Shown here: piece after piece, positions 7,354 to 55,854 of the stretch
How the letters are laid out: each line of letters starts with the position of its first letter
Position numbering within the stretch: position 1 is the first letter of the stretch
DNA from: Cardiobacterium valvarum
GTDB taxonomy: Bacteria; Pseudomonadota; Gammaproteobacteria; Cardiobacteriales; Cardiobacteriaceae
Length of the DNA stretch: 64,000 bases
Assembly: GCF_900460955.1 (NCBI RefSeq)
Contig: NZ_UFUW01000001.1
Location: 124,001 to 188,000 of the forward strand
Direction of reading: 5' to 3'
Notes under the pieces: generated by a model
Database searches by the model: none
Seen by the model: the letters and a program-made list of their open reading frames with translations, nothing else
What the model was told of the DNA's origin: nothing
Made by a program: the position numbers and the translations under genes

Positions 7354-7968
7354 TCAGGGGAGCAGGGCTTCAAGATGCGGGCGGATACGGGCGAAGACGG
7401 TATCCGGATCGCCTTCAGCATCTATCCAGCGGGCGTGTGGCGCGGTGGCGCGGGCGCGGTAACCGGCGGCGACGCGGGCATGAAAGTCGCTGTTTTCGTT
7501 TTCGAAGCGGTCGGCGCTTTGCCCACGTCCGCTCAGGCGGTCACGCGCGGTGGAACTACTGCTGCCAAGGATGAGGCTGAGATCGGGGACGCGGTCGGTG
7601 CCGCTTGCCTGTTCAAGAGTAGCAATGGTAGCGGCGGGGATACCACGTCCGTAGTGCTGGTAGGCATAGGTGGCGTCGCGGTAGCGGTCGCTGATGTACC
7701 ACGCGCCACGCGCGAGGCAGGGCAGGATGGTTTGTTCGAGGTGGGCACGGCGGGCGGCGAGGATGAGCAGCAGTTCGCTGATGGGGTCGGCGTGGGTGGC
7801 GGGGTCAAGCAGGATGGCGCGCAGTTGTTCACCAAAGGGGGTACCGCCCGGCTCGCGGCCAAAGCAGGCTTCGATATGGTTGGCGCTGCACCACGCACGG
7901 ATGTGGGCGAGTTGGGTGGTTTTGCCGACGCCTTCGCCGCCATCCAGCGTGATGAAGCGACCGTTCAT
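7354..7968 (-). CDS. tmk: Thymidylate kinase
   Basis: Phosphorylates dTMP to dTDP with ATP for DNA synthesis. 204 aa, normal length. The P-loop GGEGVGKTTQ sits at residues 9-18; FGREPGGTPFGEQLR is the DR-loop/LID-approach region and ISDRYRDATYAYQ carries the DRY-type substrate motif. The start overlaps the mltG stop by 4 bp (ATGA), and holB follows downstream as in other Gammaproteobacteria. Confidence 0.96.
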   Translation of the reverse strand: MNGRFITLDGGEGVGKTTQLAHIRAWCSANHIEACFGREPGGTPFGEQLRAILLDPATHADPISELLLILAARRAHLEQTILPCLARGAWYISDRYRDATYAYQHYGRGIPAATIATLEQASGTDRVPDLSLILGSSSSTARDRLSGRGQSADRFENENSDFHARVAAGYRARATAPHARWIDAEGDPDTVFARIRPHLEALLP

Positions 7969-8978
7969 GGTTTGTTTTGTTGTTTTTTCAGGTAGTCAGC
8001 GACGGCTTGTTGGTGTTCTTCATAGGTGGCGCTGAAGGTGTGGCCACCTGTGCCGTCGGCGACGAAGTAAAGGCTGTCGCCGTCTGCCGGATGCAGTGCC
8101 GCTTCGATGCTGGCTTTGCCGGGCAGGGCGATGGGGGTCGGTGGCAGACCTTTGTTGATGTAGGTGTTGTAGGGGGTGTCGGTTTGCAGGTGTTTGCGGG
8201 TGAGGTCGCCGTGGTAGTCTGCCGCGCCGTAGATAACGGTCGGGTCGGTTTGCAGCAGCATGTTTTTTTGCAGGCGGCGGGTGAAGACGCCTGATATTTG
8301 CGGACGTTCGGCAGCGACGCCGGTTTCTTTTTCAATGATGGAAGCAAGGATAAGTGCTTCGTAGGGGGTCGCAAGCGGCAGGCCCTCGGCGCGGCTTGCC
8401 CAGGCTTTTTCGAGGGTACGCTGCATTTCGTCGTACATGCGCTTCAGCATGTCGAGGTCGGTCGTGCCCCGGTTGAACTGGTAGGTCTCAGGCAGGAACC
8501 ATCCTTCGGGGTTGCCTTGCAGGCCAAGCAGGGTGGCAACTTCCGCATCGGTCTTGCTGTTCAGGGTGTGTTCAAGGCCGGCGGTCTGTCTGAGGGTCTC
8601 GCGCAGGTCTTTGAAGGTTTTGCCTTCGATGACGGTGACACTATACACGACGACTTTGCCGTTGGTGATGTCGTTGATAAGCGATGGCAGGGTGGCGTTC
8701 TCGTCAATGCGGTAGTCGCCTGCTTTGATATTGGCAGCTTGCGGGTTGAGGCGGGCGTAGAGCGGCAGTACCCAGTCGCTGCCACTGATGATACCCCGGC
8801 GAATGAGTTCGCGGTTGAGCGTGGCTAGGGTATCACCGCGCTTGACGGTGACGATGCCGTCGCCTTCGGCAACGAGCGGGGCATTCAGGGTTTTTTGGTA
8901 TTGCAGGTAGAAGATGCCTGCCCCCCAGCCGACAAGCAGGATGATGGTGAGGAAGAGGTTGAGCAGCAGGCGCTTCAT
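7965..8978 (-). CDS. mltG: Endolytic murein transglycosylase MltG (YceG)
   Basis: Inner-membrane lytic transglycosylase of 337 aa that cuts nascent glycan strands and is thought to set their length. It has an N-terminal membrane anchor (about residues 6-26), a LysM-like region (VKRGDTLATLNREL), and the YceG catalytic domain with ASIIEKETGV, whose Glu is the expected catalytic residue. Near the C-terminus, TPYNTYINKGLPPTPIA is characteristic. It overlaps fabF and tmk by 4 bp on either side. The pabC gene often found between fabF and mltG is absent here. Confidence 0.95.
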   Translation of the reverse strand: MKRLLLNLFLTIILLVGWGAGIFYLQYQKTLNAPLVAEGDGIVTVKRGDTLATLNRELIRRGIISGSDWVLPLYARLNPQAANIKAGDYRIDENATLPSLINDITNGKVVVYSVTVIEGKTFKDLRETLRQTAGLEHTLNSKTDAEVATLLGLQGNPEGWFLPETYQFNRGTTDLDMLKRMYDEMQRTLEKAWASRAEGLPLATPYEALILASIIEKETGVAAERPQISGVFTRRLQKNMLLQTDPTVIYGAADYHGDLTRKHLQTDTPYNTYINKGLPPTPIALPGKASIEAALHPADGDSLYFVADGTGGHTFSATYEEHQQAVADYLKKQQNKP

Positions 8979-41981: not shown

Positions 41982-42326
41982 ATGAAAAAAGTCCTGATCG
42001 CCACCGCCATTGCTGCTCTCACCCTGCCTGGCCTCGCCGCCGAACCTGTCGGCAAGGTGCTTGCTGGTGAAGGTAAAGTCTTTAAAAACAGCCACGGCAC
42101 AGTAGTACGCAAGGCGCTGAAAAAAGGCGAGAAAATTGACAGGCACAACCACGAAGGCGAAGACATCATCTTCAACGTCATGCAGGGCGCGATCAAAATC
42201 ACCCTGAACGATAGCGAAGAGCATGAACTGAAAGCGGGCGACGCCCTCGTCTTTAACGGCAAAAACTTCATTGCGGGGGAGGCAACCGATGACACGCTGG
42301 TTGTCATCACCCTGGTTAAAGAATAA
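41982..42326 (+). CDS. Exported cupin-domain protein
   Basis: 114-aa protein with a signal peptide (about 1-19, ending LAA) and a cupin fold. Motif 1 is KKGEKIDRHNHEGEDIIFNVMQG (HxH plus Glu) and motif 2 is LKAGDALVFNGKNFIAG without its His. A partial metal site is thus likely. Divergent from the FTR1/P19 pair and followed by a truncated cytoplasmic copy of the same domain. Function unknown. Confidence 0.8.
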   Translation: MKKVLIATAIAALTLPGLAAEPVGKVLAGEGKVFKNSHGTVVRKALKKGEKIDRHNHEGEDIIFNVMQGAIKITLNDSEEHELKAGDALVFNGKNFIAGEATDDTLVVITLVKE

Positions 42327-42353
42327 GGCGAACAGCCACTAACGGAGGATGCG

Positions 42354-42621
42354 ATGAGCAATCAATCAGGTACCGTCCTGAGCGGCGAAGGTGAAGCCTT
42401 GGCCAACCGCCACGGCGAGATCGAACGCATCATCCTGGCAAAAGGAGACAGCATTGCGCACCACAAGCACCCCGGCCGGGATACTGTCAGCCGTCGTCCT
42501 GAACGACAGCGAAAAATACACGCTGCACGCGGGCGATACCTTCGCCTTCAACGGACGGCACCACTTCACGGCAGGTGCAGCGGCGGATACGGTCGCTATC
42601 CATATCACTATTCGGGAATAG
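42354..42621 (+). pseudogene. Frameshifted cupin paralogue
   Basis: The first part (MSNQSGTVLSGEGEALANRH to HHKHPGRD) and a second frame (VVLNDSEKYTLHAGDTFAFN to TIRE) both match the preceding cupin gene. Between the HxH site (His codon at 42468) and the LND codons at 42499 there are 28 nt, against 51 in the intact copy. A net loss of 23 nt shifts the frame. It has its own RBS (GGAGG) and no signal peptide. In the first frame translation continues to 42683 with unrelated residues. Confidence 0.8.
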
Positions 42622-42681
42622 TCGCGGCAAAATCCTGTGACTGTATGCGGAAACTCGAAGCAGATGCACACAGGCAAAGGT

Positions 42682-42706
42682 AAAGCGGGGTTCGCCCCGC
42701 TTTTTT
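42682..42706. terminator. Rho-independent terminator between the cupin pseudogene and rng
   Basis: AAAGCGGGG-TTCG-CCCCGCTTTTTT is a UUCG-loop hairpin with a T-run on the plus strand. It also lies just past the rng stop. Confidence 0.9.
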
Positions 42707-45132: not shown

Positions 45133-46248
45133 TTAAGGCAGTTCGATCATCACAGCGGCGTCGCCGGCAGCGGTCGTTTCCGCTTCAGCCACCCGGGTGC
45201 CGCTGACGTTGCCATCGGCGCTCAAAATCGCGCGGTAGGTGAGCTGCGGATGCTGGCTGATGCTCTCGCCGGTCATGCTGTCGCGGTCGGTGAGCTCGAT
45301 GCTTTGCCGGGCAGCAGGGGCGAGGGCGCGCACAGCGAGCGGTATTTTTTCGCCCGGCAGGCTGGCGCTGACGTAGAGACGGGCTTTATCCGGCAGGGCA
45401 GCAAGCGTGTCCGCCGCGATATGCACGGTGATGGTTGGTGCGGCGGCTACCTTGCCGTCTGCGGCGGGCGGGATGAGACGGTAGAGCGGATGGTCGGGCG
45501 CGAGGTCGCGGCGCAGTTCCGCCCACAGCGGCGCGGCGAGATCAGCCTTGCCGCTTTGTGTGTAACCCGCTGCCAGCAGGACTTTGGCGAGCGGGTTGGC
45601 GCTTTGCGCGCGCAGGATGGCCTCAATATCGGCGGGCATGGGCTTGTCGGGATAGGCAAAGAGGGTGGTCTGCGCGTAGTCGAGGGCGATGGCGGCGTCA
45701 TCGGGGGCGAGGCTGTGCGCGCGGGCGTAAATCTGCGCCGCCGGCGGGTATTGCTCGTTGCGGCTGTAACAGCGGGCAAGGGTGCCGAGTTGCGCAGGAT
45801 CGCGGCGGTCAATGCGCGCCTGCAAGGCCTGACAGTAGATGGCGAGACTTTCTTGCGGCACGCGCTCAATGTCGCCGAGGTACTGGCTGCGCATGAGGGC
45901 AGGGGCGAGTTGCTGTTGCAGGTTGTGCCAGCGGTCGCCGTTACGGTCGGCCTGCTGCCACAGGGCGATGGCGGTCGCGACGGCAAAGAGGGCAAAGGGG
46001 TAGAACCACGGCGGCAGACGGGTCGCAGTCGGCGTTTTGCCCGCGCGCAGGGCTTTGAGTTCGTGGTAGAGACGGTAATCGCGCTCGTCCTGCCCCGCCG
46101 GATCATCGGCGGCGCGCCAGGCGGCAATCAGCGCGCGCTGCTCGGCGGCAGGATCGGCGGGCGCGTGGCGGCGGTGTGCCGCGCGCAGCAGGGGCAGGAG
46201 GGCGAGGAGGGTGAGGAGGAGTGGCGGGAGGAGGTAGGGCATGGGCAT
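45133..46248 (-). CDS. ccmI: Cytochrome c maturation protein CcmI
   Basis: Apocytochrome c chaperone of System I, 371 aa. An N-terminal helix (1-22) and a second near 82-98 flank a cytoplasmic loop (EQRALIAAWRAADDPAGQDERDYRLYHELKAL). A periplasmic TPR domain follows (about 120-260; QLGTLARCYSRNEQYPPAAQIYARAHSLAPDDAAIALDYAQ, given here as adjacent blocks), then a beta-rich C-terminal domain. A start two codons later is possible. Last gene of the ccm operon, 35 bp after a Sel1-repeat gene. Confidence 0.88.
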   Translation of the reverse strand: MPMPYLLPPLLLTLLALLPLLRAAHRRHAPADPAAEQRALIAAWRAADDPAGQDERDYRLYHELKALRAGKTPTATRLPPWFYPFALFAVATAIALWQQADRNGDRWHNLQQQLAPALMRSQYLGDIERVPQESLAIYCQALQARIDRRDPAQLGTLARCYSRNEQYPPAAQIYARAHSLAPDDAAIALDYAQTTLFAYPDKPMPADIEAILRAQSANPLAKVLLAAGYTQSGKADLAAPLWAELRRDLAPDHPLYRLIPPAADGKVAAAPTITVHIAADTLAALPDKARLYVSASLPGEKIPLAVRALAPAARQSIELTDRDSMTGESISQHPQLTYRAILSADGNVSGTRVAEAETTAAGDAAVMIELP

Positions 46249-46283
46249 TTGTCGTTAAGTGGGGGCGTGCTTACAGAAGGACT

Positions 46284-47597
46284 TCATGGTTTGTTGTTGC
46301 CTGTTTTGTCGAGGTCTTGCAGGATTTGCTGTGCGGCTTGTTGCGCTTCTTGGTCGCCTGTTTGGGCGGCGACTTTTTCATACCAGGCGCGTGCTTTGTC
46401 ATAGTCCCGCGTTATGCCCTGGCCGTTTTCGTAGAGGGCACCGGGGTTGAATTGGGCTTTGGCATGACCTTGCACGGCGGCTTTTTCGTACCAGGTGCGC
46501 GCTTGGGCGTAGTCTTGCGCGACGTCCCGGCCTTTGTTGTAGAGAACGCCAAGGTTGTATTGGGCTTTTGCATGACCCTGTGCAGCGGCTTTTTCGTACC
46601 AGATGCGCGCTTGGGCGTAGTCCTGCACGACACCCCGGCCTTCGGCGTAAAGGACACCGAGGTTGTATTGGGCATCGGCATCACCTTGGGCGGCGGCTTT
46701 TTCGTACCACGCACGCGCTTGGGCGTAGTCTTGCGTTATGCCCTGTCCGTTTTCGTAGAGGAAGCCGAGGTTGAATTGCGCTGCGGCATGACCCTGAATA
46801 GCGGATTTTTCAGTCCATTCTCGCGCCTTGGCATAGTCTTGTGGCACACCCAGCCCCTTATAGTAAAGATCGCCTAGATTGTATTGGGCGATGGCATTGC
46901 CTTGGGCAGCAGATTTTTCGTACCAGGCACGCGCTTGGCCGTAGTCCTGCGCTATGCCCCAGCCATTGTCGTAAAGAATGCCGAGATTCTGTTGGGCATC
47001 AGCATCACCTTGGGCGGCGGCTTTTTCCCACCACGCGCGCGCTTTGGCATTATTTTTCGGCACGCCTTGACCATTGCCGTAGAGTACACCGAGGTTGTAT
47101 TGAGCTTTGGCATCACCTTGGGCGGCGGCTTTTTCGTACCACGCGCGCGCCTGACCGTAATCCTGCACAACGCCTTGGCCGTTGCCATAGAGGAGTCCGA
47201 GGTTGTATTGGGCACCGGCATCACCTTGGGCGGCAGCCTTTTCATACCACGCACGCGCTTGACCGTAGTCCTGTGCCACACCCTGGCCTTTGGCGTAGAG
47301 GATACCGAGGTTGTATTGCGCGTTGGCATCATCTTGTGCGGCAGCCTTTTCATACCACGCACGCGCTTGCGCGTAGTTCTGCGCGACACCTTGGCCTTGG
47401 TTGTAGAGGATACCCAGATTATTTTGCGCAGCAGCATCGCCCGCTGTTGCGAGGGTTTGCCATTTTTCCAGCGCGGTGGCGTAGTCCTGCTGTTCGTAAG
47501 CCTGCAAGGCGGTGGTCCTCAGGGTTTCTTTCTCGCTGTCGCTCAAGGCATGGGCGGCGGTTGTGGCGAGGAGGAGGGCTAAGTAGAGGGTTTTCAT
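46284..47597 (-). CDS. Exported Sel1-repeat protein (10 repeats), ccm operon
   Basis: 437-aa periplasmic solenoid. Signal peptide 1-18 (ending AHA), a capping region (LSDSEKETLRTTALQAYEQQ to LATAGDA), then ten consecutive 36-residue Sel1-like repeats of the form AQYNLGxLYxxGxGVxQDYxxARxWYEKAAAQGDA from about residue 57. No cysteines, so unlike the disulfide-rich Helicobacter Hcp proteins. Third of three Sel1 genes between ccmH and ccmI, spaced 14 bp from the one before. Probable protein-protein scaffold; function unknown. Confidence 0.88.
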   Translation of the reverse strand: MKTLYLALLLATTAAHALSDSEKETLRTTALQAYEQQDYATALEKWQTLATAGDAAAQNNLGILYNQGQGVAQNYAQARAWYEKAAAQDDANAQYNLGILYAKGQGVAQDYGQARAWYEKAAAQGDAGAQYNLGLLYGNGQGVVQDYGQARAWYEKAAAQGDAKAQYNLGVLYGNGQGVPKNNAKARAWWEKAAAQGDADAQQNLGILYDNGWGIAQDYGQARAWYEKSAAQGNAIAQYNLGDLYYKGLGVPQDYAKAREWTEKSAIQGHAAAQFNLGFLYENGQGITQDYAQARAWYEKAAAQGDADAQYNLGVLYAEGRGVVQDYAQARIWYEKAAAQGHAKAQYNLGVLYNKGRDVAQDYAQARTWYEKAAVQGHAKAQFNPGALYENGQGITRDYDKARAWYEKVAAQTGDQEAQQAAQQILQDLDKTGNNKP

Positions 47598-47611
47598 GGT
47601 CTGTTTCCGCT

Positions 47612-48586
47612 TTATTGGGAGATTTTTTGCAAGGCTTTTTGCGCGGCTTGCTGGATTTCTTTGTCATCCGTTTGTGTGGCGGCTTTTTCGAACCACGCGC
47701 GGGCTCTGTTGATGTCTTTCGGCACGCCCCGGCCTTTGCGGTAGAGGACGCCGAGGTTGTATTGAGCTTGGGGAACGTCCTGCGCAGCAGCCTTTTCCCA
47801 CCATTCGCGAGCTTTGCCGTAGTCCTGCGGCACATCTTCGCCTTGGTAGTAGATAACGCCGAGGTCGTATTGCGCCTCGGCATGACCTTGGGCGGCCGCC
47901 TTTTCGAACCAGACGCGCGCTTGGTCATGGTCCTGCGGCATGCCCCGGCCGTTGTCGTAGAGTATGCCGAGGTTGAACTGCGCTTCAGCATGGCCTTGGA
48001 TGGCAGCTTTTTCATACCACGCGTGTGCTTGGCTGTACTCCTGTGCCACGCCCCGACCGTTGTCGTAGAGGATGCCAAGGTTGAATTGGGCTTGGGCGAG
48101 ATTCTGTGCGGCAGCTTTTTCCCACCAGGCGCGCGCTTGTCCGTAGTCCTGCGCTACGCCTTGACCGTTGGCGTAGAGGAGGCCGAGGTTGTATTGGGCT
48201 GCAGGGGTGCCCTGCCCAGCGGATTTTTCCCACCACGCACGCGCCTCGTTGTAGTCCTGTGTTACACCTTGTCCGTCTTTATAGAGAAGACCGAGGTTGA
48301 ATTGGGCTTCGGCATTATCTTGGGCGGCGGCTTTTTCAAACCACGCACGCGCTTGGGCATAGTCCTGCGCGACGCCTTGACCTTTATCGTAGAGTGAGGC
48401 GAGGTTATTTTGTGCAGCGGCATCGCCCGCCTCAGCGAGGGGTTGCCATTTTTCCAGCGCGGTGGCGTAGTCCTGATGTTCGTAGGCCTGTTGGGCAGCG
48501 GTCATCAGCATTTCTTTTTCGCTGTCGCTCAAGGCGTGGGCGGTAGTCCCGGCGAGGAGGAGGGCTAGGCAGAGGGTGGTTTTCAT
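47612..48586 (-). CDS. Exported Sel1-repeat protein (7 repeats), ccm operon
   Basis: 324-aa periplasmic protein: signal peptide (1-19, ending AHA), a cap (LSDSEKEMLMTAAQQAYEHQ), then seven 36-residue Sel1 repeats. The last 34 residues (RARAWFEKAATQ, TDDKEIQQAAQ, KALQKISQ) differ from the next Sel1 protein by one residue, and the DNA downstream of both stops is the same. This points to recent duplication or gene conversion. It lies 14 bp after the preceding Sel1 gene. Confidence 0.88.
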   Translation of the reverse strand: MKTTLCLALLLAGTTAHALSDSEKEMLMTAAQQAYEHQDYATALEKWQPLAEAGDAAAQNNLASLYDKGQGVAQDYAQARAWFEKAAAQDNAEAQFNLGLLYKDGQGVTQDYNEARAWWEKSAGQGTPAAQYNLGLLYANGQGVAQDYGQARAWWEKAAAQNLAQAQFNLGILYDNGRGVAQEYSQAHAWYEKAAIQGHAEAQFNLGILYDNGRGMPQDHDQARVWFEKAAAQGHAEAQYDLGVIYYQGEDVPQDYGKAREWWEKAAAQDVPQAQYNLGVLYRKGRGVPKDINRARAWFEKAATQTDDKEIQQAAQKALQKISQ

Positions 48587-48600
48587 GGTCTGTTTCCGCT

Positions 48601-49359
48601 TTATTGGGAGATTTTTTGCAAGGCTTTTTGCGCGGCTTGCTGGATTTCTTTGTCATCCGTTTGTGTGGCGGCTTTTTCGAACCACGCGCGGGCTTTGTTG
48701 ATGTCCTTCGGTACACCCTCGCCGTTGTAGTAGAGGGCGCCGAGGTTAAAGAGTGCCCTGGCATCATTTTGGGCGGCGGCTTTTTCATACCAGGCGCGTG
48801 CCTGATCGTAGTTCTGTGCTACGCCCTGCCCGTGTTTATAAAGGATACCGAGGTTGTATTGCGCTGCGGCATGGCCTTGGATGGCGGCTCTTTCCGTCCA
48901 TTCACGCGCTTTGCCGTAGTCTTGCGGCACGCCCAGCCCCGTGTAGTAGAGATCACCCAAATTGTATTGGGCGACGGCATTGCCCTGAAGAGCAGCTTTT
49001 TCATACCACTCGCGTGCTTTGCCGTAATCCTGCGGCACGCCATGTCCTTGGGCGTAGAGAAGGCCAAGATTGGTTTGTGTCCGGGCATCGCCCTGGGTGG
49101 CTGCTTTTTCCAGCCATTCGAGCGCTTTGCCGTAATCCTGTGTTACGCCTTTTCCTTCGTAATAGAGGACGGCAAGATTGCTTTGCGCGGCGGCATCGCC
49201 CGCCTCAGCGAGGGTTTGCCATTTTTCCCGTGCGGTGGCGTAGTCCTGCTGTTCGTAAGCCTGCTGGGCTGCGGTCATCAGCGTTTCTTTTTCGCTGTCG
49301 CTCAAGGCATGGACGGCGCTTGCGGCGAGGAGGAGGGCGAGGCAGAGGGTTTTGTGCAT
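48601..49359 (-). CDS. Exported Sel1-repeat protein (5 repeats), ccm operon
   Basis: 252-aa periplasmic protein. Signal peptide MHKTLCLALLLAASAVHA, then the cap and five Sel1 repeats ending in the shared KALQKISQ tail. The leader is nearly identical to that of the Sel1 gene at 51101 (MHKTLCLALLLAASAAHA), and GGAGAACCCC upstream gives a clear RBS. First of three Sel1 genes after ccmH, 30 bp from the ccmH stop. Confidence 0.88.
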   Translation of the reverse strand: MHKTLCLALLLAASAVHALSDSEKETLMTAAQQAYEQQDYATAREKWQTLAEAGDAAAQSNLAVLYYEGKGVTQDYGKALEWLEKAATQGDARTQTNLGLLYAQGHGVPQDYGKAREWYEKAALQGNAVAQYNLGDLYYTGLGVPQDYGKAREWTERAAIQGHAAAQYNLGILYKHGQGVAQNYDQARAWYEKAAAQNDARALFNLGALYYNGEGVPKDINKARAWFEKAATQTDDKEIQQAAQKALQKISQ

Positions 49360-49389
49360 GGGGTTCTCCTGGGGTGGCTTGGGCGCGGG

Positions 49390-49845
49390 TCAGTTTTTTT
49401 CTGTTTCAGCGACCCATTGCTGTAATTCGCGTTTTTCAGCGTCGCTCAAGCGGTGGGCGACGGGATGGCGGCGGCGCGCGCGCCACCACCAGGCGGCAGC
49501 GGCGAGCATTGCCGCAAACGGCGCGAGCCACAGGGCGAGGGTTTGGCTTTTCAGCGGCGGGTCGTAGGTGACGAAGTCGCCGTAGCGCGCTTGCAGCCAG
49601 GCGGCGATTTCGCTATCGCTGCGGCCTTCCTGGATTTGCCGCGCGATTTGTTCGCGCAGCTGGCGGGCGAGCGGCGCGTTCGATTCGGCGATGTCGCTGT
49701 TCTGGCAGGTGGGGCAGCGGGTTTTTTTGATGAGTGCCTGGTAGCGCGCGTTGTCGCCCGGCTGGGTGAATGCCGGTGCGTCGCTCAGGGCGGCATGGAG
49801 CGGCAGGGTGCAGGCGAGGAGGAGGGCGGGAAGGAGGCGCTTCAT
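49390..49845 (-). CDS. ccmH: Cytochrome c maturation protein CcmH
   Basis: 151-aa membrane-anchored thiol oxidoreductase that keeps apocytochrome CxxCH motifs reduced for heme ligation. Signal peptide 1-18, then the active site RCPTCQN (C44, C47) and DSNAPLA-like ESNAPLARQLREQI. A C-terminal helix (about 103-122) is followed by an RRR stop-transfer and ERELQQW-like KRELQQWVAE. It has the short form without a fused TPR domain, which is supplied by ccmI. Its start overlaps the stop of an upstream Sel1 gene by 4 bp. Confidence 0.94.
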   Translation of the reverse strand: MKRLLPALLLACTLPLHAALSDAPAFTQPGDNARYQALIKKTRCPTCQNSDIAESNAPLARQLREQIARQIQEGRSDSEIAAWLQARYGDFVTYDPPLKSQTLALWLAPFAAMLAAAAWWWRARRRHPVAHRLSDAEKRELQQWVAETEKN

Positions 49846-51104
49846 GGTTTTTTGCCGCCGGTCTTGTTGAGGTCTTGCAGGGCTTGCCGCGCGGCTTGTT
49901 GCGCGAATTCATTGTCTTCTTGCGCGGCGGCTTTTTCATACCATTCGCGCGCTTTGGCGAAGTCCTGCGGCACACCTCTGCCGTCGTTGTAGAAGTTGCC
50001 GAGGTTGTATTGGGCGGTGGCATTGCCCTGTGCGGCGGCTTTTTCGTACCACGCGCGTGCTTTGCCGTAATCCTGCGCGATGCCCTGTCCGTTTTTGTAG
50101 AGGACGCCGAGGTTGAGTTGCGCTTTGACGTTGCCTTGTGCGGCGGCTTGTTCCAGCCATGCCCGCGCTTTGTCGTAATCCTGCGCGACGCCGTGCCCGT
50201 TTTTGTAGAGGATGCCGAGGTTGTTTGCTGCGGCGGCACTGCCCCGGGCGGCGGCTTTTTCCCACCATTCGCGCGCTTTGTCGTAGTCCTGCGCGACGCC
50301 CTCTCCGTTTTTGTAGAGCAGGCCGAGTTTGTATTGGGCGTCGGCATGTTCCTGGGCGGCGGCTTTTTCCCACCATGCGCGCGCTTTGTCATCATCCTGC
50401 GGCACGCCGTCGCCGTTGTCGTAGAGGAGGCCGAGGTTGTATTGTGCGGCGGCATCGCCTCGGGCGGCGGCTTTTTCGTACCAGACGGCGGCCCGGGCGC
50501 AGTCCTGCGCGACGCCGTCGCCGTTGTCGTAGAGGAGGCCGAGATTGTATTGCGCGGCGGCATGGTCTTGCGCGGCGGCTTTTTCCCACCAGTCGCGCGC
50601 TTTGCCGTAGTCCTGTGCCACACCCCGGCCATCGGCATAGAGGAGGCCGAGGTTGTATTGGGCATCGATATTGCCCTGGGCGGCGGCTTTTTCGTACCAC
50701 GCGCGCGCCCGGTCATCATCCTGCGGGATGCCGTGCCCTTTTTCGTAGAAGACGCCAAGGCTGTATTGGGCTTCGGGGAAGCCTTGCGCGGCGGCTTTCT
50801 GCAACCATGCCAGCGCTTGGGCGTCGTCCTGCGCGACACCGTTGCCGCCGCGATGGATGCAGAGGAACAGGGCGTATTGCGCGGCGGCATCGCCTGCGCC
50901 CGCGAGGGGGCGCAGTTTTTCCAGCAAGGCGGCGTAGTCCTGTTGTGCATGCGCCTGCGCAGCGACGGCTAGCAGGGCGGCTTTGTCGCTGTCGCTCAGG
51001 GTGCGGGCAATATTGGCAGCGGCTCTTTTTTTGCCGCCGCTCAGGGCGTAAGCCACACCGGCGATGAGGAAGACGATAAGGAGGATCGGGAGGAGGATCT
51101 TCAT
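49842..51104 (-). CDS. Membrane-anchored Sel1-repeat protein (10 repeats), ccm operon
   Basis: 420-aa protein. The N-terminus MKILLPILLIVFLIAGVAYA is hydrophobic and followed by GGKKRAA, so it may be an uncleaved anchor rather than a signal peptide. A linker and cap precede ten 36-residue Sel1 repeats from about residue 74; the first is one residue longer (HRGGNGVAQDD). It has 4-bp overlaps with the preceding Sel1 gene and with ccmH, so all three are translationally coupled. Function unknown. Confidence 0.88.
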   Translation of the reverse strand: MKILLPILLIVFLIAGVAYALSGGKKRAAANIARTLSDSDKAALLAVAAQAHAQQDYAALLEKLRPLAGAGDAAAQYALFLCIHRGGNGVAQDDAQALAWLQKAAAQGFPEAQYSLGVFYEKGHGIPQDDDRARAWYEKAAAQGNIDAQYNLGLLYADGRGVAQDYGKARDWWEKAAAQDHAAAQYNLGLLYDNGDGVAQDCARAAVWYEKAAARGDAAAQYNLGLLYDNGDGVPQDDDKARAWWEKAAAQEHADAQYKLGLLYKNGEGVAQDYDKAREWWEKAAARGSAAAANNLGILYKNGHGVAQDYDKARAWLEQAAAQGNVKAQLNLGVLYKNGQGIAQDYGKARAWYEKAAAQGNATAQYNLGNFYNDGRGVPQDFAKAREWYEKAAAQEDNEFAQQAARQALQDLNKTGGKKP

Positions 51105-51769
51105 GGCTGTTTTCCGGCTTTTTTATTGAGGTCTTGCAGGGCTTTTTGTGCGGCCTGCCGGGTTTCTTCGTCGCGGGTTTGTGCGGCGGCTTTTTCGAAC
51201 CAGGCGCGTGCTTTGGCGCTGTTCTGCGGTACGCCCCGGCCTTTGTTGTAGAAGATGCCGAGGTTGTATTGAGCTACGGGAAAGCCCTGGGCGGCGGCTT
51301 TTTCCCACCAAGCGGCGGCTTGGGCGTCGTCCGGCGTGACACCTATGCCGCTTTCGTAGATGAGGCCAAGGCGGTATTGGGCTTCGGGTGAGCCTTGCGC
51401 GGCAGCTTTTTCCAGCCACGTACGCGCTTTGGCGTGGTCTTGCGCGCCGCCTTCGCCGCGCTGGTAGAGGACGCCGAGCATGTATTGGGCAGTGATGTTG
51501 TTTTGGGCAGCAGCTTTTTCCAGCCATGCGCGCGCTTGGGTGCTGTCCTGCGCGGTGCCGTCGCCTTGGTAGTGGAGAAGGCCCAGGGTGAGTTGGGCTT
51601 CGGCATCGCCTGCTTCTGCGAGGGTTTGCCAGTGGGCAAAGGCGGTGGCGTCATCCCCCTGCTTGCCGGCGGTGATGGCGGCCTGGCGCAGGGTTTGGCT
51701 TTCTTCCGCCGTCAGGGCATGGGCGGCACTTGCGGCGAGGAGGAGGGCGAGGCAGAGGGTTTTGTGCAT
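51101..51769 (-). CDS. Exported Sel1-repeat protein (4 repeats), ccm operon
   Basis: 222-aa periplasmic protein. Signal peptide MHKTLCLALLLAASAAHA, cap region (LTAEESQTLRQAAITAGKQG), then four Sel1 repeats and a tail (TRDEETRQAAQKALQDLNKK) related to the tails of its neighbours. GGAGACCCCC upstream gives an RBS. It begins 19 bp after ccmG and overlaps the next Sel1 gene by 4 bp. This is the most diverged of the five and might be nearest the founding copy. Confidence 0.87.
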   Translation of the reverse strand: MHKTLCLALLLAASAAHALTAEESQTLRQAAITAGKQGDDATAFAHWQTLAEAGDAEAQLTLGLLHYQGDGTAQDSTQARAWLEKAAAQNNITAQYMLGVLYQRGEGGAQDHAKARTWLEKAAAQGSPEAQYRLGLIYESGIGVTPDDAQAAAWWEKAAAQGFPVAQYNLGIFYNKGRGVPQNSAKARAWFEKAAAQTRDEETRQAAQKALQDLNKKAGKQP

Positions 51770-51788
51770 GGGGGTCTCCTAATGCGGT

Positions 51789-52316
51789 TTAGTCGAGCAG
51801 CGGCTGGAAATGGGTTGCCCAGTCTTGCGGGGTGAGCGGGCCGGCGTGGCGGTAGCGGATGGTGCCGTCGCGGCCGATGAGGTAGGTTTCCGGGGCGCCA
51901 TAGACGCCGAGGTCGGTGATGAGGCTGCCGTCCGGGTCGCGCAGGTTCAGGCGGTAGGGGTTACCGCTTGTTGTCAGCATGGCGGTGGCGTCGGCGATTT
52001 CGTTTTTGTTATCCGCCGGCCAGTTGACGCCGATGATGGGGATTTGCGCGGAGCGTTCGATGAGGTAGGGGTGTTCGACGCGGCAGGCAGGGCACCAGCT
52101 GCCCCAGATGTTGATGAGGTAGGGCGTGTCCTGCGGCAGGTCGGCGTTGGTGTAGCGGCGGCTGTCGTCGAGGGCGGGCAGATCGAAGGCGGGGAGCGCC
52201 CGACCGGTGGTGACGGAGGGCAGTTCTTGTGGATTGTGGCCGAGGCCGCTCGCGAAGAGGGCGATCAGGGCGGCAAAAGCGACGAGGAGGAGGATGGCGA
52301 TGTGGGGTTTTTTCAT
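51789..52316 (-). CDS. ccmG: Thiol:disulfide interchange protein CcmG (DsbE)
   Basis: 175-aa membrane-anchored thioredoxin that reduces apocytochrome c or CcmH. An N-terminal anchor (5-24), then DLPALDDSRRYTNADL, the active site GSWCPACRVEHPYL (C75, C78), IIGVNW and YGAPETYLIGRDGTIRYRHAG with the cis-Pro region typical of CcmG. Normal length. It follows ccmF after a 279-bp gap with repeats, and precedes two Sel1 genes. Confidence 0.94.
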   Translation of the reverse strand: MKKPHIAILLLVAFAALIALFASGLGHNPQELPSVTTGRALPAFDLPALDDSRRYTNADLPQDTPYLINIWGSWCPACRVEHPYLIERSAQIPIIGVNWPADNKNEIADATAMLTTSGNPYRLNLRDPDGSLITDLGVYGAPETYLIGRDGTIRYRHAGPLTPQDWATHFQPLLD

Positions 52317-52595
52317 GGATGGGGAATGGAGGGGGGGGATGTGCAGCGTATTTTACGATGCGCCTCAAGGCCGCCGTGCACCCTTTTCCGGGATGGCGGC
52401 TGTCAAGCGGCGTGGTTGCTGGGTTTGTAGAGATATTGTCTGCAACGTCTCAAAATCAAAAAAGCGCGTCGTTTCCCTGTTTGGCAGTCGCGCTTGCCCG
52501 AGACGCAAAAAAGCAGGCTGCGCCTGCTCGGCGGGCTGTAGCCCGTCCTACGCCCCCGTCAAGCGGCGTACATGCGGGGGCTGTCGCGCGCTTTT
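52317..52595. repeat. Intergenic repeats splitting the ccm operon between ccmF and ccmG
   Basis: This gap holds CTGTCAAGCGGCGTGGTTGCTGG (at about 52388) and CCGTCAAGCGGCGTAC (at about 52556) of the CAAGCGG family. Between them, AAGCAGGCTGCGCCTGCTCG and GGCGGGCTGTAGCCCGTCCTACG match the repeat at 44908. The hairpins could act as an attenuator inside the operon. No gene is seen. Confidence 0.75.
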
Positions 52596-54503
52596 TCAGG
52601 CGGTATCCGCCTGTGCCCGTCTGCCGCCCATCGCCAGCACGGCACCGAGCGCCATGAGCAGGCCGCCGATCCAGATCCAGCTGATGTAGGGTTTGTACTG
52701 GACGCGGATAGCCCAAGTGTCAGTGTTTATGGCTTCACCAAGGGCGACATAGAGGTCGTGCGTGGCTGTCACGCGGCGCGCGCTTTCGGTCATCGGCATG
52801 GTGCTGGTGTGGTATTGCCGTTTGCTGGGGGTGAGGACGGTGAGCGGTGTGCCGTCGTTTTTTTGTACGAGGATTTTGCCGACGGTCGCGCTGTAGTTCG
52901 GGCCTTCTTCGGCGGTGAGCGCGGTGAGGGTGAGGCGGTAGTCGGCGATGTTCACGCTCGCGCCCTCTTTGATGCTGTGATCTTCTTCGATGCTGTACTG
53001 GTTGGCGGCGGTGATAGCGAGCGCCAGCACGATGTAGCCGAGGTGGGCGAGTTGCATGCCGTGGTAGGGGCGGCTGGCAGGGATGCGGTGGTACAGGCGG
53101 TCAAGGTAGTCGAGCGGGATGGCGCTGGCGGCAAAGGTAGCGCAGGCGACGGCGGTGATGGTGCGCCATTGCCAGGCATCTGCCGCATGGCAGATGGCGA
53201 GGGTGGCGATGGCGGCGGCAGTCGTCATGATGGCAAGGCGCGGGAGGAGGCGGCGGGCGCGGTCGCGTTGCCAGCGCAGGAGCGGGCCAACAGCGAGGAA
53301 GATGAGGCTGGCGAGTGCCAGCGGCACGATGAGGCGGTTGTAGTAGGGCGCGCCGACGGAGATTTTGCCAAGGTTCAGGGTGTCGGCCAGGAGCGGATAG
53401 AGGGTGCCGGTGAAGACGGTGAGGCAGGCGCCCGCCAGCAGCCAGTTGTTGGCGAGGATGCCGGTTTCGCGGGCGAGCAGGCCGTGGCGGGCTTCGCTTG
53501 CGAGTTGTGGCGCACGCAGGATGAGGAGGATGAGTGCGGGCAGGGTGTTGGCAATGATGAGGGCGAGAATGTACACGCCTCTGGTCGGGTCGGCGGCGAA
53601 GGCGTGCACGGAGGTGAGGACGCCGGAGCGGACAAGGAAGGTGCCGATGAGGCTGAGGGTGAAGGCGCTGATGGCGAGCAGCGCCGTCCAGGTGCGCAGG
53701 CCGCCGCGTTTTTCGCTGACGATGAGGCTGTGGATGAGGGCGGCGCCGATGAGCCACGGCATGAGCGAGGCGTTTTCGACGGGATCCCAGAACCACCAGC
53801 CGCCCCAGCCGAGTTCGTAGTAGGCCCAGTAGCTGCCCAGCGCGATACCGAGGGTGAGGGCGCCCCAGGCGGCGAGTGTCCACGGACGGGCGCGGCGCAG
53901 GGAGAGAGTATCAAGGCGGCCTTGCCAGAGGTTGGCGAGGATGATGGCGTAAGCGACGGCGAAGCCGACGTAGCCGGTGTAGAGCAGCGGCGGATGGAGG
54001 ATGAGGCCGGGGTCCTGGAGTAAGGGGTTGAGGTCGGCGCCGTCAAACGGGGCGGGCAGGATGCGGGTGAAGGGGTTGGAGGTGAAGCCAATGAAGCCGG
54101 TGAAGCCGACGCTGATGTAGCCGAGGATGGCAAGGGTTTTGCCGCGCACGGCGTCCGGCAGGTCGCGGCTTTTCGCAGCAAAGGCCGCCGCCCACCAGGC
54201 GAGGATGGTAATCCAGAGCAGCAGTGAGCCTTCGTGTCCGCCCCAAACGGCGGTCGCACGGTAGTACCACGGCAGGAGGCTGTTGCTGTGGGCGGCGATG
54301 TAGCGCACGCTGAAATCGTTGGCGAGGAAACCGTAGGCGAGGGCGGCGATGCTGAGGGCGAAGAGTGCCGCCTGGGTTTTGGCTGTGCTCACGGCGATGG
54401 CGCAGGCGCGGCGTTCGTCCGCGAGCAGGGCAGGGATGGCGGCCTGGATGAGGGCGAGCGCACCGGCCAGCCATAGCGCGTAGTGTCCAAGGGCGATGAT
54501 CAT
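52596..54503 (-). CDS. ccmF: Heme lyase subunit CcmF
   Basis: Large inner-membrane protein of 635 aa that, with CcmH and CcmI, attaches heme to apocytochrome c. About 15 hydrophobic segments. The WWD heme-handling motif is WGGWWFWDPVENASLMPW near residue 230. HEGSLLLWITILAWW, PGLILHPPLLYTGY and conserved periplasmic His residues are present. Size close to E. coli CcmF (647). Its start overlaps the ccmE stop by 4 bp. Confidence 0.96.
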   Translation of the reverse strand: MIIALGHYALWLAGALALIQAAIPALLADERRACAIAVSTAKTQAALFALSIAALAYGFLANDFSVRYIAAHSNSLLPWYYRATAVWGGHEGSLLLWITILAWWAAAFAAKSRDLPDAVRGKTLAILGYISVGFTGFIGFTSNPFTRILPAPFDGADLNPLLQDPGLILHPPLLYTGYVGFAVAYAIILANLWQGRLDTLSLRRARPWTLAAWGALTLGIALGSYWAYYELGWGGWWFWDPVENASLMPWLIGAALIHSLIVSEKRGGLRTWTALLAISAFTLSLIGTFLVRSGVLTSVHAFAADPTRGVYILALIIANTLPALILLILRAPQLASEARHGLLARETGILANNWLLAGACLTVFTGTLYPLLADTLNLGKISVGAPYYNRLIVPLALASLIFLAVGPLLRWQRDRARRLLPRLAIMTTAAAIATLAICHAADAWQWRTITAVACATFAASAIPLDYLDRLYHRIPASRPYHGMQLAHLGYIVLALAITAANQYSIEEDHSIKEGASVNIADYRLTLTALTAEEGPNYSATVGKILVQKNDGTPLTVLTPSKRQYHTSTMPMTESARRVTATHDLYVALGEAINTDTWAIRVQYKPYISWIWIGGLLMALGAVLAMGGRRAQADTA

Positions 54504-54958
54504 GGCTGTTGCTGGCTTTGGTGCTGGTAGCCGCTGCGTTCCAGATCAGCTTTGAGTTCGGGCGGCATATAGTTTTCGTCGTGCTTGGCGAGGATTTCAT
54601 CCGCCTGAAATTCACCGTCGGCGCGCAAGGTGCCGCGCGCGATGACACCCTGTTTCTCGCGGAAAAGGTCGGGCAGGATGCCGGTATAGCGCACGTCAAG
54701 CGGCGGGTGGCGGTAATCGGTGATGCGGAAGTGCACGGTCAGACTGTCGCCCTCGCGTTGCAGGGATTTTTCTTCCACCATGCCGCCGACACGGATGCCG
54801 GGCTGATCAAGCGGCGCGGCATGAACGGCGATTTGTTCCAGCGAGTAGTAGTGGTTCAAATCGTTCTGCATGGCGTAGAGCAGGAGGGCTACGGCGGCGG
54901 CGAAGGTGGCGAAGATGAGGCTGATGAGGGTGAGGCGTTTTTTTCTAGCGGGAGTCAT
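54500..54958 (-). CDS. ccmE: Heme chaperone CcmE
   Basis: 152-aa membrane-anchored periplasmic chaperone that binds heme covalently and passes it to CcmF. An N-terminal anchor (about 9-29), the OB-fold domain ([19 protein letters not shown] and [22 protein letters not shown], as separate blocks), and the heme-binding His H126 in [12 protein letters not shown]. It overlaps ccmD by 14 bp and ccmF by 4 bp. Confidence 0.96.
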
Positions 54959-55121
54959 CGTGTTGTTTCAGGGTGTCAAGGGTGTGTTGCAGGCGGCGGC
55001 GGCGGCGCGCGGTGAATACGTGAATGGCGACGAGGGCAGCAAGCGTGAGGCCGTAGGCGGTCCAGACGTAGATGCCGTGCGCGCCCATGCGCAGGAATTC
55101 ACTGAGGCTGGCGAGGGACAT
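54945..55121 (-). CDS. ccmD: Heme exporter protein CcmD
   Basis: Small membrane protein of 58 aa that helps release holo-CcmE from CcmC. The start [20 protein letters not shown] at 55121 was chosen, as it matches the usual CcmD N-terminus and has GGAAA upstream; a start 12 codons earlier would overlap ccmC. One helix (about 15-35) is followed by a basic stretch ARRRRRLQ. It begins 1 bp after the ccmC stop and overlaps ccmE by 14 bp. Confidence 0.9.
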
Positions 55122-55122
55122 A

Positions 55123-55854
55123 TCAGGTTTCCAGTTGGCGGCGGATGCGGTGCTCAAGAATCAGGTTGCCGACAGCGCGGATGAGATAGTCGGCAAAAAG
55201 AGCGTAGAAAGCGAGCAGCGTGATGACGAGCGGGCGCAGCATGGTGCCGTCAATACTGGGGCCGTCGGCGCGAAAGAGCGTCGCCCCCTGATGCAGCGAA
55301 TTCCACCACACCACCGAATAATGAATGATGGGGATGTTGATGACGCCGACAATGGCGAGGATGGCAGCAAGACGGTCGGCCTGGTCGCGTTCCTCAATGC
55401 TCGCCTGCAACAGCAGGTAAGCGAGATAGAGGAAGAGCAGGATGAGTTCGGAGGTGAGGCGGGCGTCCCAGGTCCAAAACGTCCCCCAGGTCGGTTTGCC
55501 CCAAATCGCGCCGGTCGCAAGCGCCAGTGCCGTTATCAACGCGCCGTACGGGGCAGCGGCGCGCGCCATCCAGGCGGCAAGGCGGCTGCGCCAGACGAAA
55601 TGCATGAGCGAGACGGCGGCAAGGAAGATATAAATGCTCATGGAGAGCATCGCGGCGGGGACGTGCAGGTAAATGATGCGGAAACTGTCTTTTTGCTGGT
55701 AATCCGGTGGCGCGAAGGCGAGACCCCAGACGATGCCGACGGTGAGCAGTAACCAGGCAAGCGGCGTCAGCCACGGCAGGATGTGCCTGCTCAGGCGCTC
55801 AAAACCGGCAGGACTGCCCCAGTGTTGCAGGCGTTTATGCAGAGTGCTTTTCAT
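55123..55854 (-). CDS. ccmC: Heme transporter CcmC
   Basis: Inner-membrane protein of 243 aa, six helices, that loads heme onto CcmE. The start [20 protein letters not shown] was chosen; the longer frame adds 53 residues of low-complexity upstream sequence. The WWD motif is [20 protein letters not shown] near residue 120, with heme-ligand His residues in [11 protein letters not shown] and [14 protein letters not shown]. First gene of the ccm operon here. The ccmA and ccmB genes that usually precede it are absent. Confidence 0.95.

Follow-up and report, generated by a model that had tools for sequence, protein, structure and literature searches.

Five genes for Sel1-repeat proteins with export-signal-like starts interrupt the cytochrome c maturation (ccm, System I) genes of Cardiobacterium valvarum. 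They lie on the minus strand of the window, the stretch of 64,000 nucleotides from contig NZ_UFUW01000001.1 that was analyzed here. We read them, with a probability of roughly 0.6, as genes for ordinary periplasmic Sel1 solenoids that have expanded at the species level and now reside in the ccm unit, from which they are expressed. In the direction of transcription the gene order is ccmC-D-E-F, ccmG, selA, selB, ccmH, selC, selD, selE, ccmI (55854 to 45133, Table 1), where selA to selE are the names given to the five Sel1 genes, numbered along that direction. Two occupy the ccmG/ccmH joint and three the ccmH/ccmI joint. A first-pass annotation of this DNA had reported such an interruption by exported Sel1 genes, and Pfam matches, gene order and inspection of the signals bear it out.

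Five Sel1 genes at two ccm joints

All five frames are intact. Their products match Pfam Sel1 (PF08238) with E-values from 1.9e-44 to 2.2e-107, and whole-protein scores were 149–348 bits against a curated cut-off of 30.7. Pfam delimits 35 repeats in total, with nine in SelB, where the first-pass annotation had counted 36 and ten. Signal-peptide-like N-termini were recognized by inspection rather than by SignalP in all five proteins, with an A-H-A end in SelA, SelC, SelD and SelE; from these starts the proteins look periplasmic. No cysteine is present in mature SelA, SelC, SelD or SelE, excluding a thiol-redox role for those four, and SelB contains two. Structure prediction gave a confident alpha-solenoid for SelC (mean predicted local distance difference test score, pLDDT, 92.9). 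Among solved structures, this model is closest to Sel1 proteins from the bacteria Oxalobacter, Legionella and Escherichia coli (E 1.6e-14). For SelB and SelC, the nearest proteins of solved structure include EsiB (4bwr), LceB (8sxq), LpnE (6deh) and HcpC (1ouv). The CcmI/CycH TPR domain PF23914 was not matched by SelA–E, which match Sel1 instead; CcmI does match PF23914.

The genes are closely packed with their neighbors. The 4-bp overlaps noted at first pass are real, with ATGA shared by selA and selB at 51101–51104 and by selB and ccmH at 49842–49845. The remaining gaps are 19 nt (ccmG–selA), 30 nt (ccmH–selC), 14 nt (selC–selD), 14 nt (selD–selE) and 35 nt (selE–ccmI). Judged purely from this tight arrangement, the sel genes are very likely co-expressed with ccmG, ccmH and ccmI. 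The first-pass annotation had placed them in the ccm unit as a whole, and this is less sure. The ccmF–ccmG gap is 279 bp here, whereas in the congener G002 the two genes overlap or come close to doing so. The gap includes an interspersed repeat (~82% identity to copies elsewhere in the genome), and its coding strand shows a terminator-like stem upstream of ccmG. The five sel genes therefore go with ccmG-H-I, and ccmG-sel-ccmH-sel-ccmI may form its own transcript. The repeat itself is ~180 bp long, carries the terminator-like stem and has several genomic copies (52317–52595 in the window, L258:11958–12131 and L020:6237–6414).

Traces of local copying are evident among the five genes. selA and selC are nearly identical over a block that starts at the ribosome-binding site and runs through codon 14, with the rest of the two genes ~68% alike. 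The last ~90 nt and the 3′ spacer of selC and selD are identical, apparently by local gene conversion, and a tail ending in CCATGAAG is common to selA, selB and selE. The common start block, 3′ end and tails indicate local copying between the two insertions. Outside the copied blocks, synonymous divergence was ~0.65 or more (a rough estimate near saturation), so the duplications are not fresh. The ratio of nonsynonymous to synonymous divergence (dN/dS) ranged from 0.08 to 0.51 among the sel genes and was lowest for the matching repeats of selC and selE. Values this far under 1 demonstrate purifying selection on the amino acids, beyond the mere keeping of open frames. Third-position G+C content is 0.60–0.65 in selC–E and 0.73–0.85 in the ccm genes. 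Recent foreign origin was considered on this ground; composition is not diagnostic, since values for the remaining Sel1 genes of this genome span 0.51–0.77.

The CCATGAAG context of a leftover start in the selE–ccmI spacer recurs at the selA/selB and selB/ccmH joints. The spacer begins with ATGAAG as ccmH does, but matches neither ccmH nor any of the sel genes significantly. Tandem duplication of a sel–ccmH block, with later loss of a second ccmH, is not claimed.

Table 1. Features of the ccm region, with positions in the window
Feature	Position	Strand	Description
ccmI	45133..46248	-	membrane part, TPR domain (below Pfam cut-off), immunoglobulin (Ig)-like domain
selE–ccmI spacer	46249..46287	-	leftover start ATGAAGTCC... 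(MKSFCKHAPT then stop); no source detectable
selE	46284..47597	-	Sel1 protein with signal-like start, 437 amino acids (aa), 10 repeats
selD	47612..48586	-	Sel1 protein with signal-like start, 324 aa, 7 repeats
selC	48601..49359	-	Sel1 protein with signal-like start, 252 aa, 5 repeats
ccmH	49390..49845	-	CPTC motif intact
selB	49842..51104	-	Sel1 protein, 420 aa, 9 repeats; overlaps selA and ccmH by 4 bp each
selA	51101..51769	-	Sel1 protein with signal-like start, 222 aa, 4 repeats
ccmG	51789..52316	-	DsbE family
ccmF–ccmG gap	52317..52595	-	interspersed-repeat copy; terminator-like stem at 52529-52511
ccmF	52596..54503	-	
ccmE	54500..54958	-	
ccmD	54945..55121	-	58 aa, Pfam CcmD 1.5e-11
ccmC	55123..55854	-	

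CcmI is full length, with its TPR and Ig-like domains still present, as is the CPTC motif of CcmH. With the ccm genes intact, there is no indication that the Sel1 genes have taken over any of their functions; substitution for the CcmI TPR domain in particular was ruled out by the full-length CcmI. ccmA and ccmB are remote from the rest, near 587 kb and 1448 kb. The ccmA gene stands alone (L127:7240–7830) and adjoins a gene for a choline/carnitine acyltransferase of 600 aa, unusual in a bacterium (L127:8072–9874). Elsewhere in the window, two cupin-like genes lie side by side at 41982–42683, the second apparently shortened by a frameshift.

Relatives and the wider Sel1 family

The ccm joints of related genomes were surveyed with a Sel1 profile made from the window's own repeats, which was positive on known Sel1 loci tried alongside. 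The survey used this simple profile with a simple caller of open reading frames, covered family, order and class together with 80 named loci, some of them truncated among the surveyed set, and counted readable joints only. The relatives compared are other species, from congener to class, and C. valvarum is represented by one genome. Sel1 genes were found at 0 of 190 readable joints before ccmH (family 6, order 18, class 97, named loci 69) and at 0 of 170 before ccmI (family 6, order 16, class 89, named loci 59). ccmH is present in eight of the 12 family genomes, and the ccm regions of the seven others that bear it contain no Sel1 gene. Sel1 genes did occur in the surveyed stretch at four loci, each time outside the F-to-I block. 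Conservation together with the ccm genes across genomes, as expected of a System I component, is thus not seen for the sel genes. The first-pass annotation had set this search beforehand as a test of its proposal, and the outcome was absence at congener and family level.

The sel genes are recent arrivals at these joints. In G002 the empty sites are plain overlaps, CCATGAAACGC at ccmG/ccmH and CCATGATG at ccmH/ccmI, making insertion after the split from this congener the simplest reading. The ccmG/ccmH joint of three relatives from two genera contains a nitroreductase-family gene (L009:8928–9674, L011:10260–11009 and L014:10250–10861), indicating that this joint repeatedly accepts unrelated genes. 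In a second congener, G001, ccmC, ccmF and ccmH were not found on the single 2.67 Mb contig, which reflects either gene loss or a gap in the assembly; ccmB is kept, as is a cytochrome c gene (L278:3810–4442 and 7927–8589).

Sel1 genes are dispersed through the C. valvarum genome, with 108 repeat matches in total. Besides the five at the ccm joints, at least 16 more Sel1 genes are present at 14 sites. Nine of these 16 begin within 50 nt of a same-strand upstream gene or overlap it, and in three cases the overlap with an unrelated upstream gene is again 4 bp. Coupling to ccmH is therefore not special and is no mark of a ccm function. By N-terminal cap, the nearest relative of the five is a Sel1 gene 30 nt after trpE (61% identity), and a small cap tree groups this gene with selB–E at modest support (0.76). 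At least one other Sel1 gene, after a corC-like gene, is missing at the same place in G001, while the genus has conserved some others, located after a helicase gene and between SPFH and NfeD-like genes. Another family member (G005) carries three exported Sel1 genes in tandem right after rpoA-rplQ (L139:4110–6351). The names folP, helicase, corC and rplQ, where Pfam or NCBIfam made no call, were read from the sequence by eye. At L018:2826–4514, a caspase-like (peptidase C14) domain, also judged by eye, is fused to seven Sel1 repeats.

Accounting for the insertions

The five genes would be a locally expanded subfamily of exported Sel1 solenoids, the wider family having spread through the genome. 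They would have entered the two joints after the species parted from its congener, to be transcribed with ccmG-H-I, with selB translationally coupled to ccmH. Their products, presumably exported by Sec to the periplasm, would each form a curved alpha-solenoid that may bind other proteins or peptides, and the partners are probably not dedicated System I factors. The ccm unit would act chiefly as an expression site. If the five proteins were lost with no polar effect on ccmH or ccmI, c-type cytochromes would then stay largely normal. If the genes are passengers of this kind, they caution against inferring function from operon position where a repeat-protein family spreads, even with start/stop overlaps.

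Several observations weigh against this reading. Five genes at two joints around one gene are more than one stray insertion, and the purifying selection on them shows that they are of importance to the cell. Cytochrome assembly elsewhere uses Sel1 or TPR solenoids (COA7, CcmI, NrfG). In Haemophilus influenzae, deletion of four Sel1 genes reduced ccm, nrf, dms and tor expression (PMC4792463); that effect is a regulatory link of Sel1 proteins to anaerobic respiration rather than a maturation role. The comparison also rests on the one genome of this species.

One alternative is a lineage-specific System I accessory. Here the solenoids would hold apocytochromes or scaffold the CcmF-H-I haem lyase, extending or specializing what the CcmI TPR domain does, in the way that NrfG and SirG serve single cytochromes. 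The genes flank ccmH on both sides, tight with ccmG-H-I, and the five intact genes under purifying selection encode periplasmic-looking products. A second apocytochrome chaperone alongside CcmI has a precedent in SirG of Shewanella oneidensis (PMC6976685), and human COA7, a repeat-level relative, is reported to take part in the assembly of cytochrome oxidase and to bind haem (PMC10769979). Nevertheless, we consider an accessory role unlikely, and the first-pass proposal of a System I component is unsupported. No readable relative has a Sel1 gene at these joints, Sel1 genes of this genome are equally coupled to unrelated genes, and the ccm genes and CcmI domains are intact. Four of the five mature proteins, being free of cysteine, could have no COA7-like disulfide activity, and COA7 is one among many Sel1 matches, outside the best. 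Should the five be true accessories, they would be, to our knowledge, the first Sel1 proteins linked to System I. They would then make it possible to test, in a simple system, how substrates are presented during cytochrome c maturation, a step that is poorly understood.

More doubtful still is a role in host interaction or at the envelope, like that of H. influenzae Msf, E. coli EsiB or Legionella LpnE, for proteins placed in the ccm unit by chance and expressed under respiratory control. The proteins of solved structure nearest to SelB and SelC are indeed secreted or periplasmic, and in H. influenzae the Sel1 arrays vary among strains, with one to four genes at a small number of loci (PMC4792463). 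However, the likeness is confined to the repeat level, and neither a host-binding feature nor a surface-anchoring signal was found in the Sel proteins. The genes might also have no function of their own, their frames staying open only for the sake of translation into ccmH and ccmI. This would suit the young insertion and the overlap of the selB stop with the ccmH start, but is very improbable given a dN/dS that falls to 0.08 and shows the amino acids to be selected.

Comparison with known systems

Our literature search turned up no paper that describes Sel1 genes within a ccm operon, nor any about Sel1 proteins in Cardiobacterium. The MerG family (NF033786) is the best NCBIfam match of the five proteins, at 80–207 bits against a cut-off of 350, and MerG identity (phenylmercury resistance) was rejected on these scores. 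MerG is alike in another respect, as a Sel1-type protein drawn into an operon of other function (mer) in few lineages (PMC3466566). EsiB, LpnE, LceB and HcpC share the fold of the Sel proteins as their top structural matches. They are known or proposed effectors or host-interaction factors, with no genomic tie to cytochrome assembly.

CcmI, NrfG and SirG resemble the Sel proteins in being periplasmic alpha-solenoids encoded with haem lyase genes. Unlike the Sel proteins, they belong to the TPR repeat family, and CcmI is membrane-anchored, System I-wide and present here in addition. COA7 (PDB 7mqz) is likewise a Sel1 solenoid in a periplasm-equivalent compartment, related to the Sel proteins in sequence and fold at the repeat level only (8.8e-11). 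It differs in its reported disulfide reductase activity, since mature SelA, SelC, SelD and SelE are free of cysteine. If the accessory reading were true, the five genes would represent a Sel1-based System I add-on in one lineage, parallel to mitochondrial COA7.

The SlrV/Msf arrays of H. influenzae are similar in comprising exported 36-residue Sel1 repeats, variable in repeat number and in the number of tandem genes, at lineage-variable loci placed between housekeeping genes (PMC4792463). They differ in context, having been investigated for macrophage survival, and in lying outside the ccm operon, the main locus being flanked by prfA and the gene of a putative transporting ATPase (PMC4792463).

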